DNA of 64,000 bases from a virus. The notes beneath the pieces are model-generated. The model ran no database searches. It was not told the origin of the DNA and worked only from the letters and a program-made list of their open reading frames with translations. Made by a program: the position numbers and the translations under genes. Numbering within the stretch: the first letter of the stretch is position 1; every line of letters begins with the position of its first letter. The stretch spans positions 1-64,000 of IMG/VR virus record IMGVR_UViG_3300048582_000136. The stretch is one strand, 5' to 3'. Shown here in pieces: positions 3,806-13,594 of this stretch.

Positions 3806-4134
3806 ACGTCGAAGAGATGTATGCCACTGCCCGCCGCCTCAAGCAGCTCATGATCGACAAGGGCTACGGCTCTGCCAGAGTGAGCATCTCAGTCCAATAC
3901 ATCGGGGCCCCCCTGGTAATCTTTCTCGAGACCGGTGGAGGCCGATCCAATCCTCTCATGGGCAAGGCTACCGTTGAAGGGCTTGGTCGCCTCATCGAGA
4001 TGGCTGAAGACTGGATCGCAGATCTTCCCGATCAGATGATCGTCAAGCGGGAAGAGTTCTACAAGCTCGTCGAGAGTCTTTCCTCCCGTGCTGAGGAACT
4101 CGGCATCGAGCTGCCGGTCAAACTGGCCAGCTGA
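3802..4134 (+). CDS. Hypothetical protein, 110 aa
   Basis: I use the ATG at 3802 (MNVEEMYATARRLKQL), which overlaps the zinc-knuckle gene's stop and follows AAAGGAAA. Helical N- and C-terminal segments flank a central beta stretch (ARVSISVQYIGAPLVIFLE). There is no recognised domain. Its stop overlaps the start of the DUF4031 gene by one base, so both are in one operon with the SleB-type hydrolase. Confidence 0.55.
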   Translation: MNVEEMYATARRLKQLMIDKGYGSARVSISVQYIGAPLVIFLETGGGRSNPLMGKATVEGLGRLIEMAEDWIADLPDQMIVKREEFYKLVESLSSRAEELGIELPVKLAS

Positions 4135-4391
4135 TGGTTTACGTTGACCCAGCTCGGCATCCCTATGGCCGCATGCTCATGTGCCACATGATGGCCGATA
4201 CGACTGAAGAGCTTTTGCTCATGGCAGATCGCATCGGCGTTCAGCGCAAGTGGATCCAGAAACCTGGAACCGCTTATGAGCATTTCGACATCGCAAAAAA
4301 CAAGCGTGAGCTTGCTGTTGCTGCCGGAGCCAAGGAAGTCTCAAGCATGGATTTGGGTCGGCTCATCCGCAAACGAAAGGCCAATCCATGA
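4134..4391 (+). CDS. DUF4031 protein
   Basis: The opening VYVDPARHPYGRMLMCHMMAD followed by ADRIGVQRKWIQ is the signature of the DUF4031 family, which is common in phages and actinobacteria. The length (85 aa) fits. Conserved Asp, His, Arg and Met/Cys residues suggest a small catalytic or metal-binding protein, but the family has no established biochemical role that I know. It overlaps the hydrolase gene after it by four bases (ATGA). Confidence 0.75.
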   Translation: MVYVDPARHPYGRMLMCHMMADTTEELLLMADRIGVQRKWIQKPGTAYEHFDIAKNKRELAVAAGAKEVSSMDLGRLIRKRKANP

Positions 4392-6548: not shown

Positions 6549-7681
6549 ACGCCCTTCCCGATTCCGTCGACAAGCTCTTCGACATCACCAAAGGCAAGCT
6601 TTTCTTCGAGAAGTGTGCAGGCTTCTTCGGACCCCTTCTCTGCCAGCTCGAGTTCCACTGGACCCGTGACATCAAGACGGCTGCCATCTCAGCAACCACC
6701 CTCTACTGGAACCCTGACTTCTTCTTGTCGATCGACCCCAAGACCAGGGTCACTGTCCTGGCTCACGAGATCAAGCACAACGCTGACCTCGATGGCGCCC
6801 GCATGGGTAACCGGGATCCGGAGATCTGGAACCATGCCGCTGACCACGCCATCAACCTCTTCCTGAAAGAGCATGGCTACTACATGGACGGGTTCCCCTA
6901 CCTCATGGACCCGAAATACAAGGGTTGGGCCAGGGAAGACATCTATGATGACCTGGTCAAGCAGCAGAAGAAAGGCAACAAGCCTTTTCCGCCCAATCCC
7001 TTGGGCAATGACATTCGTAAGATCTCACCCGAAGAGCTACCAGCAGCTATCGCCACAGTAGCGGCCGCGGTTCAAACAGCCCGCATGTCAGGGAAGCCCG
7101 GATCCATCCCTGGAGACACGCTTGTCACCCTCGACAAGTTTCTCTTCCCCAAGCTTCCCTGGAACGTGATCCTCTTCAACTACTTCAATGCCCTGGTCCA
7201 GGATGACCGCTCCTACATGCGTCCCAGCCGGCGCCATGAAGAGATCATCATGCCAGGCAACATGGGCCGCTCTGGCCTCGAGCACCTCGTCTACGCTCTC
7301 GATCTTTCTGGCTCTACCACCGACGAGATGGTGAACCAATCTAACAACGAAGTCCGTCACATCCAGGAAGACCTGATGCCTGAGAGGCTGACGATGGTCA
7401 CCTTCGACACCAAGATCATCGACGAGTTCCATTTCGAGCGTGGTGATTCCTACCCCCCACTCAAGGTTCATGGCCGAGGGGGCACCGCTCTCGAACCGGT
7501 CTACGCATATGCTAAGAAACACGAAGCTACCGCGTTGATCATTCTGACTGATCTATTGGTCAGGATTCCGCCTGATCCGGGAATACCAGTCGTGTTTGTA
7601 TGTGTGGACAACCCCTCAGCATCTGTGCCATATGGGGTTGTGGTTCACATGGATACGACCACCGGATCAACCCCGATCTGA
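6545..7681 (+). CDS. DUF2201/VWA-like metallopeptidase protein (N4 gp25-like)
   Basis: The N-terminal part has a zinc-protease motif HEIKH (residues 74-78) followed by conserved His-rich helices (NHAADHAINLFLKEHGYY), as in the DUF2201 putative metallopeptidase domain. The C-terminal part is VWA-like with the MIDAS-type segment DLSGS beginning at Asp253. Proteins of this kind pair with MoxR ATPases. Its partner ATPase lies one small gene upstream, and the arrangement matches N4 gp24/gp25. The His/Glu ligands and the MIDAS residues are intact, so both halves may be active. The substrate is unknown. Confidence 0.8.
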   Translation: MNALPDSVDKLFDITKGKLFFEKCAGFFGPLLCQLEFHWTRDIKTAAISATTLYWNPDFFLSIDPKTRVTVLAHEIKHNADLDGARMGNRDPEIWNHAADHAINLFLKEHGYYMDGFPYLMDPKYKGWAREDIYDDLVKQQKKGNKPFPPNPLGNDIRKISPEELPAAIATVAAAVQTARMSGKPGSIPGDTLVTLDKFLFPKLPWNVILFNYFNALVQDDRSYMRPSRRHEEIIMPGNMGRSGLEHLVYALDLSGSTTDEMVNQSNNEVRHIQEDLMPERLTMVTFDTKIIDEFHFERGDSYPPLKVHGRGGTALEPVYAYAKKHEATALIILTDLLVRIPPDPGIPVVFVCVDNPSASVPYGVVVHMDTTTGSTPI

Positions 7682-7703
7682 CCCACTTACCCTGCCTGAA
7701 CTT

Positions 7704-7727
7704 GGCTCCCCTTCGGGGGAGTCTTTT
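7704..7727 (+). terminator. Rho-independent terminator with UUCG loop
   Basis: CTCCCC (7706-7711) and GGGGAG (7716-7721) pair around a stable TTCG loop and are followed by TCTTTTCT. It sits about 25 bases after the VWA gene stop and ends the MoxR/VWA operon. Confidence 0.8.
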
Positions 7728-7751
7728 CTCGAATCACGAGTCTGCATACCC

Positions 7752-8198
7752 ATGATCATCAACCAAAGACACCTTATCGAGGTGCACCCCGTCTCCCCCA
7801 TGATGGCTGAGAAGCATAGGCTCCATGGGGTTTCCCATGGCCTCAGCGAAGCGGGCTACGACATCCGTATCAAGCAGGATGTCTGGCTCTTCCCCTTCAA
7901 GCGGTTCGCTCTCGCCTCTGCCATCGAGAAGTTCCGCATGCCCCACCATCTCGTGGGCATCGTGCATGACAAGTCCACCTGGGCTCGTCGTGGCCTCTCC
8001 GTCTTCAACACCGTCATCGAACCAGGTTGGAATGGCTTCCTGACCCTTGAGCTCGTCTACCACCGCTGGAAGCCTCTTCACATTCCAGCGGGCGCCGGCA
8101 TTGCCCAGGTCATCTTCCACCAGACCTCGAGCACGGCTGCCTACAACGGCAAATACCAGAACCAAGAGAACCGGCCGGTCAAGGCCATCACAGTTTGA
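7752..8198 (+). CDS. dcd: dCTP deaminase
   Basis: I use the ATG at 7752; the 148-residue protein fits the dCTP deaminase/dUTPase fold. Motifs include GLSEAGYDIRI (about residues 31-41), HDKSTWARRGL then VFNTVIEPGWNGFLTLEL (about 75-102, with the catalytic Glu in the last segment), and GAGIAQVIFH near residue 120. The enzyme converts dCTP to dUTP in the cytoplasm. With the phage dUTPase (9844-10308) and ThyX (8518-9483) it gives a complete dCTP to dTMP route. The family also has bifunctional dCTP-to-dUMP members, which I cannot exclude. The gene starts a new unit after the terminator at 7704. Confidence 0.85.
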   Translation: MIINQRHLIEVHPVSPMMAEKHRLHGVSHGLSEAGYDIRIKQDVWLFPFKRFALASAIEKFRMPHHLVGIVHDKSTWARRGLSVFNTVIEPGWNGFLTLELVYHRWKPLHIPAGAGIAQVIFHQTSSTAAYNGKYQNQENRPVKAITV

Positions 8199-9518: not shown

Positions 9519-9842
9519 ATGCTTCCCACCGTCACCGACGCCAGTTTTGGCGCGCAAGTCCTTCATGCCGAGCTCCCCGTTCTGGTCAAATTCACCGCTT
9601 CATGGTGCCAGCCCTGCAAGACCATGACCGATATCCTTCGGGACTTCATTCCCGAAATGGGCAACCATGTCCGCTTCGTTGAAGTCGACATAGAGGCCAA
9701 TCCCGAGCTCTCGAACCTCTACCAGGTCCGCAGCCTGCCGACCCTGGTGCTCTTCAAGAAGGGTGCTCCGATCGCCAACATCACCGGCCTCTCTCCGAAG
9801 CCGAAGATCCGTTCCTGGATCATCAACCAGCTGGGACTCTGA
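9519..9842 (+). CDS. Thioredoxin
   Basis: A 107-residue protein with FTASWCQPCKTM (about residues 26-37), the CxxC redox centre of the thioredoxin fold, and the conserved cis-Pro strand RSLPTLVLFKKG further on. The length is that of a minimal thioredoxin. It has no signal peptide, so it is cytoplasmic. Usual partners are ribonucleotide reductase or, in T7, the DNA polymerase. No reductase is in this window, so its partner may be outside it or from the host. It sits between thyX and the dUTPase gene. Confidence 0.9.
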   Translation: MLPTVTDASFGAQVLHAELPVLVKFTASWCQPCKTMTDILRDFIPEMGNHVRFVEVDIEANPELSNLYQVRSLPTLVLFKKGAPIANITGLSPKPKIRSWIINQLGL

Positions 9843-9843
9843 C

Positions 9844-10308
9844 ATGGGACTCCACCATCACCCCGAGGTTGGCGTTTACGTCAACATGATCCTCCTTCCC
9901 GGAGCCAAGGAGCCTGTCTACTCCACGGCTGGAGCAGCTGGAGCGGATCTCCATGCCTTCCTGCTCGATGGTCCCCTGGTCCTCGTCAGGGGCGCCAGAT
10001 ACCTGGTTCGCACCGGGATCAAGCTGGAGCTTCCCCCCGGTTACGAGGCGCAGATCCGCTCTCGCTCGGGCCTGGCATCCAACCACGGCATCCACGTATT
10101 CAATGGTCCTGGCACCATTGACGAGGACTTCCGCGGAGAAGTGCAGGTGCTCCTTCGCAACAGCTCCGGCAAGGACTACACGATCAAGAACGGGGACCGC
10201 ATTGCCCAGATGGTCATTGCCCCCGTCGTCAGAGGCCTTTTCCGGAACGTGACTCATCTCGTGCCCACCGATCGTGGCGCCGGGGGTTTTGGTTCTTCTG
10301 GGGTTTAA
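9844..10308 (+). CDS. dut: dUTPase (trimeric type)
   Basis: I use the ATG at 9844, one base after the thioredoxin stop. All five dUTPase motifs are visible in order: AGADLHAF, RSRSGLAS, GTIDEDFRGEVQV, NGDRIAQMVI and DRGAGGFGSSG at the C-terminus. The catalytic Asp in TID is present; the usual Tyr of motif 3 is Phe. It hydrolyses dUTP to dUMP and pyrophosphate, supplying ThyX and keeping uracil out of DNA. The 154 aa are the normal length. Confidence 0.92.
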   Translation: MGLHHHPEVGVYVNMILLPGAKEPVYSTAGAAGADLHAFLLDGPLVLVRGARYLVRTGIKLELPPGYEAQIRSRSGLASNHGIHVFNGPGTIDEDFRGEVQVLLRNSSGKDYTIKNGDRIAQMVIAPVVRGLFRNVTHLVPTDRGAGGFGSSGV

Positions 10309-10593: not shown

Positions 10594-10848
10594 ATGCATG
10601 ATGAGAATACCAGTCCGGTGGCAAACGCTCTGCGAAAAGCGGGCTATGTCCCGCTTCCACGCCTCTGGATCAAGGCCGAAGACATGCCCAAGATCCACAA
10701 AATCGCCCACCAGCATCTCCCCGGTGTGCGAGACATCCGCAAAGCTTTCAACGACGACCAGTCGGCCTACAAAGACCAGCCGGCTCCTGATCCCATCTCG
10801 GATCGGGAAGCTGCCTGGGCGGCCTACGAGAAGATGCGAGGAGGGTGA
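10594..10848 (+). CDS. Hypothetical protein, 84 aa
   Basis: Starts at the ATG at 10594, two bases after the upstream stop. It combines short helices (SPVANALRKAGYVPLPRLWI, then DMPKIHKIAHQH) with an acidic, Pro-rich tail. It has no recognised domain. It is a member of a run of small middle genes with tight spacing (10340-11618). Confidence 0.55.
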   Translation: MHDENTSPVANALRKAGYVPLPRLWIKAEDMPKIHKIAHQHLPGVRDIRKAFNDDQSAYKDQPAPDPISDREAAWAAYEKMRGG

Positions 10849-10851
10849 GCC

Positions 10852-11325
10852 ATGGGTCACATCCCGAAGCTCTTGACTTTCGAGAAAGCAGCTGAAAACC
10901 CAAACCCCACGGAGGATGTGATGGGCGACCGCACCTACTGCAGTCTCTATTGCTACCGAGATACCCCCCTCACCGAAGAGGAAAGCGCCCGGCTTACCAA
11001 AGCTCTCAAAAACGAGCTCCCCTCGGAGATCGAAGACAACTTCGCCGGTTTCCACGAAATCAACTACGGCGAGATGCCTTCTGATATCGGGACGCCTCTC
11101 GAAGAGATGGGTATCTCCTTCTCGTGGTATCATGGCAACGGCGATAGCTACAATTCCGGAGTCTACATCTTCGATGCTCTGACCCAGGAAAGTGACAGCT
11201 TCAACACCATCGACTCGCAAATCGTCATCACTGTCGACTGCACCCCAGAAGAGCTCGAGCATGCTCGTTCCTGGTATCGTCGGTTCGAAGGCCGCACTCC
11301 CCTTGTGCTTCCGAAGCTGGACTGA
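10852..11325 (+). CDS. Hypothetical protein, 157 aa, with possible second start
   Basis: The ATG at 10852 follows GAGGAGGG (10839-10846). A second in-frame ATG at 10921 has its own strong site, GGAGGA at 10911-10916, and would give a 134-residue form starting MGDRTYCSLYCYRDTPLT. The region after 10921 looks like the folded domain: aromatic, with a central SFSWYHGNGDSYNSGVYIFD strand pair and VITVDCTPEEL. The first 23 residues look unstructured. It may be translated from both starts. Function unknown. Confidence 0.6.
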   Translation: MGHIPKLLTFEKAAENPNPTEDVMGDRTYCSLYCYRDTPLTEEESARLTKALKNELPSEIEDNFAGFHEINYGEMPSDIGTPLEEMGISFSWYHGNGDSYNSGVYIFDALTQESDSFNTIDSQIVITVDCTPEELEHARSWYRRFEGRTPLVLPKLD

Positions 11326-11327
11326 CC

Positions 11328-11618
11328 ATGTCGATCGATCCCGCCAAGCACACTTTCACCCCCGATCAGATAGATCTGGCAGAAGTCTTCATCGATGTGT
11401 TCCCGATGATCCGTGAACCTTCGGGAGACTCCCGTATGGTCCAGGGCCTCGAAGAGCCTGCCTTCTACGACGTCATGCTTCGGCCGCACGACTGGGACAT
11501 CACTCAGAACGAGCCCTACGGCGAGTGGGAAAACCTCACCCTGGGACAGGCCAACACCATCGTGGAAGCTCTCGAAGCATTGAACCCAGGCATCGAAGTG
11601 AACTGGGTAGAAAGCTAA
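11328..11618 (+). CDS. Hypothetical protein, 96 aa
   Basis: The ATG at 11328 lies two bases after the upstream stop. The protein is acidic with Asp/Glu spread along its length and a C-terminal helix (LTLGQANTIVEALEALNPG). No motif is recognised. It is the last gene before the unusual spacer with a tRNA fragment. Confidence 0.55.
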   Translation: MSIDPAKHTFTPDQIDLAEVFIDVFPMIREPSGDSRMVQGLEEPAFYDVMLRPHDWDITQNEPYGEWENLTLGQANTIVEALEALNPGIEVNWVES

Positions 11619-11643
11619 GATTCGGCATCCAATCAGCACCGAA

Positions 11644-11665
11644 GCGGAACCGGAACCGGTTCCGC
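11644..11665. repeat. Inverted repeat after the 11328-11618 gene
   Basis: GCGGAACC (11644-11651) pairs with GGTTCCGC (11658-11665) over a 6-nt loop; a 14-nt palindrome (CGGAACCGGTTCCG, 11651-11664) overlaps it. There is no U-run. It could be an operator or a transcript end structure. Confidence 0.45.
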
Positions 11666-11698: not shown

Positions 11699-11739
11699 TG
11701 GCGCACCCGACAGGATTCGAACCTGTGACCCCTGCCTTT
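11699..11739 (-). other. 3' fragment of a tRNA-Arg gene (candidate attachment site)
   Basis: Read on the minus strand, this segment gives AAGGCAG, a variable stretch GGGTC, the T arm ACAGG-TTCGAAT-CCTGT, a 3' acceptor strand CGGGTGC, the discriminator G and an encoded CCA. This is the 3' half of an alphaproteobacterial tRNA-Arg (CCG type, from memory of that gene). The anticodon, D arm and 5' acceptor strand (expected GCACCCG) are not found upstream, so it is not a complete tRNA. A tRNA 3' fragment of about 40 bases is typical of an attP core, but no integrase is seen in the window. Confidence 0.7.
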
Positions 11740-11899
11740 CGAGGAAGTAATCAAAGCCGTCCGCGGCCATGCCAAACGAGGCAAGGCGCCGGCCCTCTAC
11801 CGCAACCCCGACAACCCGCGCCAGACCTGGTCTGGCAAAGGAGAGGCACCTACCTGGTTCACCAAAGCCAAGAACCCGGAAGAGCTTCGGATCGACTGA
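11738..11899 (+). pseudogene. Headless H-NS-family C-terminal DNA-binding domain
   Basis: An open frame without a usual start encodes 53 residues ending in a TGA at 11897-11899. It contains YRNPDNPRQTWSGKG then PTWF, the classic DNA-binding signature of H-NS/HvrA-type nucleoid proteins. The frame is open only from 11729, just after a TGA, and the first possible start is a CTG at 11732 inside the tRNA fragment. The N-terminal oligomerisation part is missing. A good terminator follows, so the original gene unit ended here. It is probably a fragment whose 5' part was replaced by the tRNA-derived sequence. Confidence 0.7.
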
Positions 11900-11930
11900 T
11901 TCGATCCACACAAACCCCAGCACTACATCA

Positions 11931-11957
11931 GCCTCGGTTTTCCGGGGCTTTTTCTTT
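11931..11957 (+). terminator. Rho-independent terminator after the H-NS fragment
   Basis: GCCTCGG (11931-11937) pairs with CCGGGGC (11942-11948, one G-T pair) around a TTTT loop, followed by TTTTTCTTT. It is well formed and rightward. Confidence 0.8.
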
Positions 11958-12074: not shown

Positions 12075-12281
12075 ATGCCTGCTGACTTCGCTGATGAAGC
12101 ACAAGAGATCAACGAGACCTTCCTGGAACTCTCGCTCAAAAAAGTTCCCCGAACGGCCCCACCCTTGTCTGGTTTTTGCCTCCACTGCGAAGAACCGGTC
12201 ACCCAACGCCGCTACTGCGACAGCACCTGCCGTGAAGGTCATGAGGCCTCTCAACGTCACACTGCTCGTTTCGCCCCATAA
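12075..12281 (+). CDS. Small zinc-finger protein (TraR/DksA-like), 68 aa
   Basis: An acidic N-terminal helix (MPADFADEAQEINETFLELSL) is followed by a compact zinc finger: GFCLHCEEPV then RRYCDSTCREGHE, i.e. two CxxC-like pairs. This is the layout of short phage TraR/DksA-type proteins, which bind the secondary channel of RNA polymerase. The second pair is CDSTC rather than CxxC, as in some Zn-finger variants. GAGGAAGAG at 12063-12071 is its ribosome binding site. A role in host transcription control is an inference from the family. Confidence 0.55.
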   Translation: MPADFADEAQEINETFLELSLKKVPRTAPPLSGFCLHCEEPVTQRRYCDSTCREGHEASQRHTARFAP

Positions 12282-12295
12282 TTTGAAGGCCCCCC

Positions 12296-13594
12296 ATGCT
12301 CCTGAACCAAGGTCAAGAGGCAGCCGCTACGGCTGTCTTGCAGTTTCTCCTATCCAACGAAAAGGAATTCAACATCTCCGGTCCTGCCGGGGTGGGCAAG
12401 ACTTTCATGATGCAACACATCATGTCCACGGTTCTGCAATCTTACCAGGATGCCTGCACCCTGCTCGATCGGCCCGCCGTCGACTACCAGATCGCTCTCA
12501 CCGCCACCACCAACAAGGCGGCTGAAGTTCTCTCAGTATCCACCGGCTTTCCGGCTCAAACCATTCACAGCTTCCTCAAGCTGAAGGTCTACGACGACTA
12601 CAAGACTGGCCAGTCTAAGTGTGAACCTACCAAGGACTTTGGTGTTCACACTCGCAAGCTGATCTTCGTCGACGAAGCATCCATGGTGGACCGAGTCCTT
12701 CACGGCTACCTTCACAAAGGCACGGACTCCAGCTGCAAGATCATCTACCTCGGTGATCACTGTCAGCTGGCTCCAGTGATGGAAGACCTCTCCCTGGTCT
12801 ACAAGCAACCCAAACCCATCGCTCATCTCACCGAGCCAATGCGGAACGCTGGTCAGCCGGCCCTGGTCGACCTCTGCAGCCGTCTCCGCAATGTCGTCGA
12901 AACCGGTGTCTTCTTTCAACTGGATCAGGTTCCCGGAGTCGTCGAATACCTGACCCAGGAGCAAGCCGCTGCCTTCGTGGACAGCACCTTCCGGGTCGAA
13001 GATCCCAACAGCCGGATCCTCTGCTACACGAACAATAGGGTGAAAGAATACAACACCTACATCCGGCAGCTCAGAGGCCACCCCGACCACTTCTCCGTCG
13101 GAGAAATTCTCATCAACAACAGCGGTCTCGCTATCGGCAAGACCTTCCTGCGCGTGGAACAGGAGCTCGTCGTCCAGAGTGTCGACACCACCATCCACAG
13201 TGTCACAATCGACGAAGACGATTCCAATACCGTTCTCCATGTCTACACTATCGTGGCCGGCAACACCGCAGGCAGTCTCGGCATCACCCTTCATGTGCCA
13301 GCCGATCCTGACCACTTCAAAGAGCTGATGAAGCACTACGCCAGGCAGAAGAACTGGTCGCCTTACTACAAGCTCAAGAACAACTACCCAGACCTTCGGC
13401 CTCGGGATGCGGCCACTGTCTACAAGGCCCAGGGCAGCACCTATGACTCGGTGCTCCTGGATCTCACTGATATCGGCAAGTGCACCCAGAACGACCAGCT
13501 CGCCCGGATGCTCTACGTCGCCGTCTCCAGAGCCCGATCCAAGGTCTACCTCTATGGCTCTCTGCCTGCTCGGCTCTTTGCCAAGGCAGCCTGA
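12296..13594 (+). CDS. Dda-like SF1B DNA helicase
   Basis: Walker A is GPAGVGKT (residues 29-36) and Walker B is LIFVDEASM near residue 122. GDHCQLAPV follows as motif III, and the C-terminus has AATVYKAQGSTYDSVLLDL with LYVAVSRARSKVYLYG as motifs V and VI. This is the superfamily 1B (RecD/Dda) layout at the T4 Dda length. Such enzymes unwind 5' to 3' and help initiate and restart replication. It leads the replication block and fits the helicase (gp37 type) that precedes DNA polymerase in N4-like genomes. The spacing to the next gene is 23 bases. Confidence 0.88.
   Translation: MLLNQGQEAAATAVLQFLLSNEKEFNISGPAGVGKTFMMQHIMSTVLQSYQDACTLLDRPAVDYQIALTATTNKAAEVLSVSTGFPAQTIHSFLKLKVYDDYKTGQSKCEPTKDFGVHTRKLIFVDEASMVDRVLHGYLHKGTDSSCKIIYLGDHCQLAPVMEDLSLVYKQPKPIAHLTEPMRNAGQPALVDLCSRLRNVVETGVFFQLDQVPGVVEYLTQEQAAAFVDSTFRVEDPNSRILCYTNNRVKEYNTYIRQLRGHPDHFSVGEILINNSGLAIGKTFLRVEQELVVQSVDTTIHSVTIDEDDSNTVLHVYTIVAGNTAGSLGITLHVPADPDHFKELMKHYARQKNWSPYYKLKNNYPDLRPRDAATVYKAQGSTYDSVLLDLTDIGKCTQNDQLARMLYVAVSRARSKVYLYGSLPARLFAKAA

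Follow-up and report, generated by a model that had tools for sequence, protein, structure and literature searches.

The locus at positions 11,699 to 11,899 of a 64,000-nucleotide stretch of viral DNA (the whole stretch is called the window here) raises the question of why the 3′ half of a tRNA-Arg gene abuts a gene fragment for the DNA-binding end of an H-NS protein. The original prediction had offered three readings, namely an attP core in an otherwise lytic-type phage, a relic of integration, or the scar of a recombination that decapitated a phage xenogeneic silencer. On the evidence of a sister phage, these can be parts of one history, and the locus is very probably the fossil of an integration module, composed of an attP relic and an H-NS tail, in an N4-like phage.

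Gene neighbourhood in the window phage and its sister

The window lies within an IMG/VR record of 73,892 bases (73.9 kb). Its genes place it among the N4-like phages (Schitoviridae): the record encodes a giant virion RNA polymerase with 3,738 aa (PHROG 2206), the N4-like RNA polymerases (PHROG 2166 and 2051) are found in the 9.9 kb beyond the window, and DNA polymerase, primase, portal and TerL were also found in the record. N4-like phages were for a long time regarded as strictly lytic. The description as an otherwise lytic-type phage is nevertheless not borne out, since N4-like phages with integrases have been published (PMC10654107).

The sister phage (IMGVR_UViG_3300025887_000038; loci L002 and L004) is represented by a 46.7-kb fragment, whose locus is syntenic with that of the window. 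Its gene order is the homologue of the 84-aa gene, xis, int, the tRNA-Arg(CCG) 3′ half, a MazG-like gene, H-NS, the zinc-finger-like gene and the helicase gene; the 84-aa homologue stands immediately before xis and int, which overlap. A gap of 64 bp lies between int and the tRNA half, which is on the minus strand; the H-NS gene, which the original prediction had proposed to look for in sister phages, is full-length (105 aa) and has a terminator. The tyrosine integrase (2892-3989 in L004) matches PF00589 with E=1e-3, below the curated cut-off, and aligns over its full length with the Int protein of phage 16-3 at 34-35% identity. Two copies of the octamer CGGGTCCC flank the core on each side, at 3997 and 4009 on the left and at 4183 and 4194 on the right. 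These repeats are presumably arm sites of the integrase, and a tRNA 3′ half lying between such paired arm-type repeats would represent a textbook attP. Box II of the integrase reads HTLK in L004 and in the related loci L077 and L078, compared to HTLR (HxxR) in classical tyrosine recombinases.

The window retains both flanks of this arrangement (Table 1) and is devoid of xis-int, MazG, the right attP arm and the head of H-NS, with a breakpoint at the anticodon loop of the tRNA. The place of xis-int is occupied by two ORFs, relatives of which are absent from phages and from the N4-like loci compared, and no convincing int or xis remnants were found between 10848 and 11700. Most N4-like relatives carry MazG directly ahead of the helicase gene; in the record of the window, no MazG was found. 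On the right flank, the product of the small gene before the helicase has no Pfam match, and the term zinc-finger-like comes from its cysteine/histidine pattern alone. Farther to the left, thioredoxin-like and dUTPase-like ORFs, named by eye, are located at 9519-10308 between thyX and a 105-aa gene; they were not seen at that place in the sister (L002).

Table 1. Features of the locus and its flanks, in window coordinates
Feature	Position	Strand	Evidence or remark
84-aa gene, conserved left flank	10594..10848	+	49% identity, E=7e-15 to L076/L081
157-aa ORF in the place of xis-int	10852..11325	+	no Pfam
96-aa ORF in the place of xis-int	11328..11618	+	no Pfam
Possible remnant of left attP arm	11639..11665	.	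9-mer CCGAAGCGG, then hairpin GCGGAACC..GGTTCCGC; weak
tRNA-Arg(CCG) 3′ 40 nt, from 3′ edge of anticodon loop to CCA	11699..11738	-	very probably attP core relic
H-NS C-terminal DNA-binding domain fragment, 53 codons + TGA, start-less	11738..11899	+	PF00816
Junction bases	11739..11744	-	CCTC as in relatives' attP fragments; GA unlike them, fits H-NS side
Intrinsic terminator, presumably once the end of the H-NS gene	11930..11957	+	8-pair stem + T-run
Zinc-finger-like small protein gene, conserved right flank	12075..12281	+	52% identity to L076, same place
Dda-like helicase, conserved right flank	12296..13594	+	PHROG 325, E=4e-117

The tRNA half as a probable attachment-site core

The tRNA piece of the window, AAGGCAGGGGTCACAGGTTCGAATCCTGTCGGGTGCGCCA, is identical in 40/40 nt to the 3′ end of tRNA-Arg(CCG) with its CCA, as would be expected of an attP core derived from a bacterial tRNA gene; the tRNA-Arg 3′ half was thus correctly recognised by the original prediction, as was the position of its junction (11738/11739), and its isoacceptor can now be added. 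It is the only match to T-arm, acceptor and CCA in the 64-kb window, and its last 25 nt gave no chance match in 100 shuffles even when three mismatches were permitted. A whole tRNA was not found by ARAGORN, and no Rfam hit reached the gathering threshold. The proposed search of candidate hosts for a tRNA-Arg with the same 3′ end of about 40 bases was fruitful, as exact matches were obtained in 70 bacterial genome stretches, 58 of which contain the match inside the same full tRNA-Arg gene, and ARAGORN identified tRNA-Arg(CCG) in all ten bacterial loci checked. The matching taxa include Brevundimonas, Rhodobacter, Novosphingobium, Halopseudomonas and Alcanivorax, among others, and the host signal of the piece fits both alpha- and gammaproteobacteria. 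The exact tRNA core of the sister had no match in 369 genomes of the Pseudomonas class, and a search for N4-like proviruses with the helicase profile, run without a positive control, found none in 385 genomes of the Brevundimonas class (Alphaproteobacteria), so that attL and attR could not be compared with those of an integrated relative.

The 5′ edge of the piece, on which the original prediction was silent, coincides with the 3′ edge of the anticodon loop. Crossover in this loop is a recognised subsite of tRNA integration, used by 2,083 of 3,919 islands (PMC4383910). If the piece is the attP core of an integrase family, like fragments should accompany other members of the family. This prediction was tested on 19 loci that have an integrase of at least 42% identity and DNA beyond int. 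A tRNA-Arg(CCG)-type 3′ half was found in 13 of the 19 (L004, L077, L078 and ten further ones, where the window-type fragment adjoins int) and a tRNA-Pro 3′ half in three more. They lie 65-375 bp after int, and every one starts from the anticodon loop; the edge of the window fragment (CCTC..AAGG) is the boundary seen in this clade.

tRNA genes and pieces of them are common cargo of phages, and the piece might therefore be a captured host or phage remnant unrelated to integration, next to which H-NS was cut independently. The region has weak matches in 376 phage records, many of them probably through tRNA genes. However, the piece begins at the anticodon loop as the attP cores of the clade do and ends in CCA, and its orientation, place and isoacceptor are those of the sister attP. 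Capture is largely contradicted by the sister locus, and we regard it as extremely unlikely.

Isolated 3′ halves of tRNA-Arg(CCG) starting from the anticodon loop were also observed in the bacterial genomes L027, L029, L048, L059, L060, L068, L073 and L075, and are probably the ends of integrated elements; displaced halves with the window-type edge occur in several bacterial genomes (L029, L059, L060, L073 and others).

That the site is an attP core is well supported as far as a relic is concerned, the tRNA 3′ half being of the kind found in the sister attP. A still working attP, served in trans by the integrase of a prophage residing in the host or by a recombinase of the phage itself that escaped detection, would be in keeping with a 40-nt core that is exact to bacterial tRNA genes and in this sense not decayed, and the displaced tRNA-Arg(CCG) fragments in candidate host genera may mark other integrated elements. 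It is disfavoured by the lack of an integrase, which is present in the sister: the original prediction saw none in the window, and the proposed search of the rest of the genome failed to find one, as neither the PF00589 profile nor the L004 integrase has a match in the 73.9-kb record. A scan of the larger ORFs showed no serine recombinase. The core also lacks arm-type repeats on its two flanks: to its right lies H-NS coding sequence, in which the repeats of the L004 arm are absent, and to its left there is a single 9-mer match. A working site is accordingly very improbable. The same is true of the idea that selection maintains the intact core, with the phage relying at tRNA-Arg(CCG) on an integrase borrowed from a resident element, and that anticodon-loop recombination has reshaped neighbours such as H-NS.

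The 9-mer CCGAAGCGG is identical in the L004 arm (4003-4011). An inverted repeat (GCGGAACC..GGTTCCGC, 11644-11665, fold z -5.1) without a T-run separates the 96-aa ORF from the tRNA piece, and may be a former arm site or serve as a regulatory hairpin. The likeness to a left arm could also be due to chance, or to a hairpin with another role.

The H-NS tail and the junction

The frame on the other side of the junction matches PF00816 with 38.6 bits (cut-off 25.6; E=8.9e-10), in support of the predicted H-NS C-terminal DNA-binding domain without a start, and is the sole H-NS domain match in the whole record. It ends in a TGA at 11897-11899 and is headless, with a TGA just upstream and no ATG, GTG or TTG in frame; neither an N-terminal oligomerisation domain nor a match to the N-terminus of the L004 H-NS was found. 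The tail and the C-terminal half of the L004 H-NS (105 aa) are 74% identical, the dN/dS of the tail against the sister is 0.16, and no stop interrupts the frame. Since the sister gene is full-length and the window keeps the tail alone, the scar that decapitated a phage H-NS is well supported. Weak relatives of the tail were found in 20 of 274 genomes of the Pseudomonas class (identity up to 53%) and in none of 289 genomes of the Brevundimonas class. The terminator noticed after the frame is indeed intact (stem 11930-11949 followed by a T-run; fold z -3.5), and L004 has a terminator-like hairpin at the equivalent place.

The headless tail might still be made, through a CTG or ATC start near 11730-11751 or by read-through, and act as a DNA-binding competitor. 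The intact frame and the low dN/dS are compatible with this, although the latter mostly reflects the time before truncation; moreover, the frame has no ordinary start, is preceded closely by a stop, and no promoter-like site was found for it. We consider such expression highly unlikely.

At the junction, a few bases are common to both pieces: the H-NS side reads TTC-GAG-GAA, and the tRNA on the other strand reads CCTCCGAAGG. Aligned with the attP fragments of the relatives, the window has CCTC(GA)AAGGCAG versus CCTC(CG)AAGGCAG. The junction could in principle be artificial, with two strains, or phage and host, fused at 11738 during assembly, and a scan of IMG/VR for the exact patterns of tRNA fragment and junction returned no further contig. 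However, both flanks consist of phage genes in the order of the sister, this locus is where either piece would be expected, and the few shared bases are too short for the joining of contigs, which makes a chimera very unlikely. The sister also carries both the full H-NS gene and the tRNA sequence; the opposite case, a sister whose H-NS gene is complete but which lacks the tRNA sequence, which would have counted against the original prediction, was not found.

Collectively, a fossil integration module is the preferred explanation. In the ancestor, the 84-aa gene would have been separated from the zinc-finger-like and helicase genes by xis-int, attP, MazG and a complete H-NS gene, with the 3′ half of the host tRNA-Arg(CCG) as attP core. 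The arrangement in the sister is presumably this ancestral state, on the basis of one N4-like sister that has the module (61% identity between the two helicases) and of the general N4 gene order; the presence of int, attP, MazG and full H-NS in the sister and the lack of int in the window argue for the relic of integration. At the anticodon loop, a tyrosine integrase would have catalysed recombination between attP and the tRNA gene, and the host tRNA would have been restored by the 3′ half that the phage brought in, which is the known mechanism of tRNA-targeting phages. The ancestral H-NS was probably a silencer of prophage or host genes. The xis-int pair would then have been lost, or replaced by the two unrelated ORFs. 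In a second deletion, the middle of the H-NS gene would have become linked to attP at its anticodon-loop edge, with loss of MazG, the right arm of attP and the H-NS start and oligomerisation domain; this order of losses is the likely one. With its breakpoint at the crossover loop, and with no integrase or MazG found in the record, the site is very probably an attP fossil. The loss looks recent, because of the dN/dS of 0.16, the absence of a stop in the H-NS tail and the tRNA piece without a mismatch.

The second deletion may have arisen when the integrase cut a similar-looking site in H-NS, or through microhomology. A random deletion sparing the core would rarely hit the crossover point, which would favour the integrase as the cutter. 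A likeness of H-NS to the 5′ side of the tRNA as a guide of the recombination was considered and dropped, as it is equalled at 13% of random sites; because this likeness is no better than chance, joining by microhomology is an equally good explanation.

H-NS, integrases and comparison with known systems

Among 36 N4-like records, which are partly fragments and not independent, H-NS occurs in three, namely the window phage, its sister and the provirus-like record G682, and an integrase occurs in two, both of which also carry H-NS (Fisher p = 0.005). G682 (L093, IMGVR_UViG_2706794523_000001) is a provirus-like N4-like record of 72.8 kb with a different integrase at its right end; at 7258-7857, just before the helicase, it encodes a 199-aa protein that has an H-NS domain at its end. 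The co-occurrence of H-NS and integrase, with an overlap of two records and a scar as the third H-NS, suggests as a hypothesis only that H-NS serves lysogeny, or the prophage state, in N4-like phages.

Attachment sites in tRNA genes are classical, and the loss of lysogeny modules is a familiar process. On the searches made, the tRNA-Arg(CCG) site together with the 16-3-type integrase family in N4-like phages appears to be new, as does so clear a scar of loss, and the link of H-NS with an integrase in the N4-like group is newer than the knowledge of temperate N4-like phages, which have already been reported. A search of the literature joining N4-like phages with H-NS, tRNA and lysogeny gave a single match, on a filamentous prophage. 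The locus and its sister point to a specific integration site, tRNA-Arg(CCG), and a phage 16-3 type integrase in the N4-like group. The window lineage appears to have lost this module and offers a concrete case of a step from temperate to virulent life.

Temperate N4-like phages and proviruses are known, with 54 genomes that carry lysogeny genes (PMC10654107). Like the window, these are N4-like genomes with traces of integration modules; the passages retrieved from that paper describe neither a tRNA attachment site nor H-NS, and the module of the window is lost. Phage-encoded H-NS is likewise known, from EPV1, a podovirus with an integrase (PMC3097231). Both phages have a gene with the H-NS C-terminal domain, whereas the window keeps the DNA-binding end alone, and EPV1, at 36 kb, is not N4-like by its size.

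The closest parallel is with phage 16-3 and the Islander class A attP sites. In phage 16-3, xis and int overlap as in the sister; the attP annotated there lies after int, and its core falls on the anticodon arm of a tRNA. The tRNA used there, by its sequence tRNA-Pro, differs from the tRNA-Arg(CCG) of the window. Unlike these systems, the window has no int, xis or right arm, which marks it as a probable relic. Like them, the window has a tRNA 3′ half that runs from the anticodon loop to CCA, and the sister has this core right after overlapping xis-int, between paired arm repeats.
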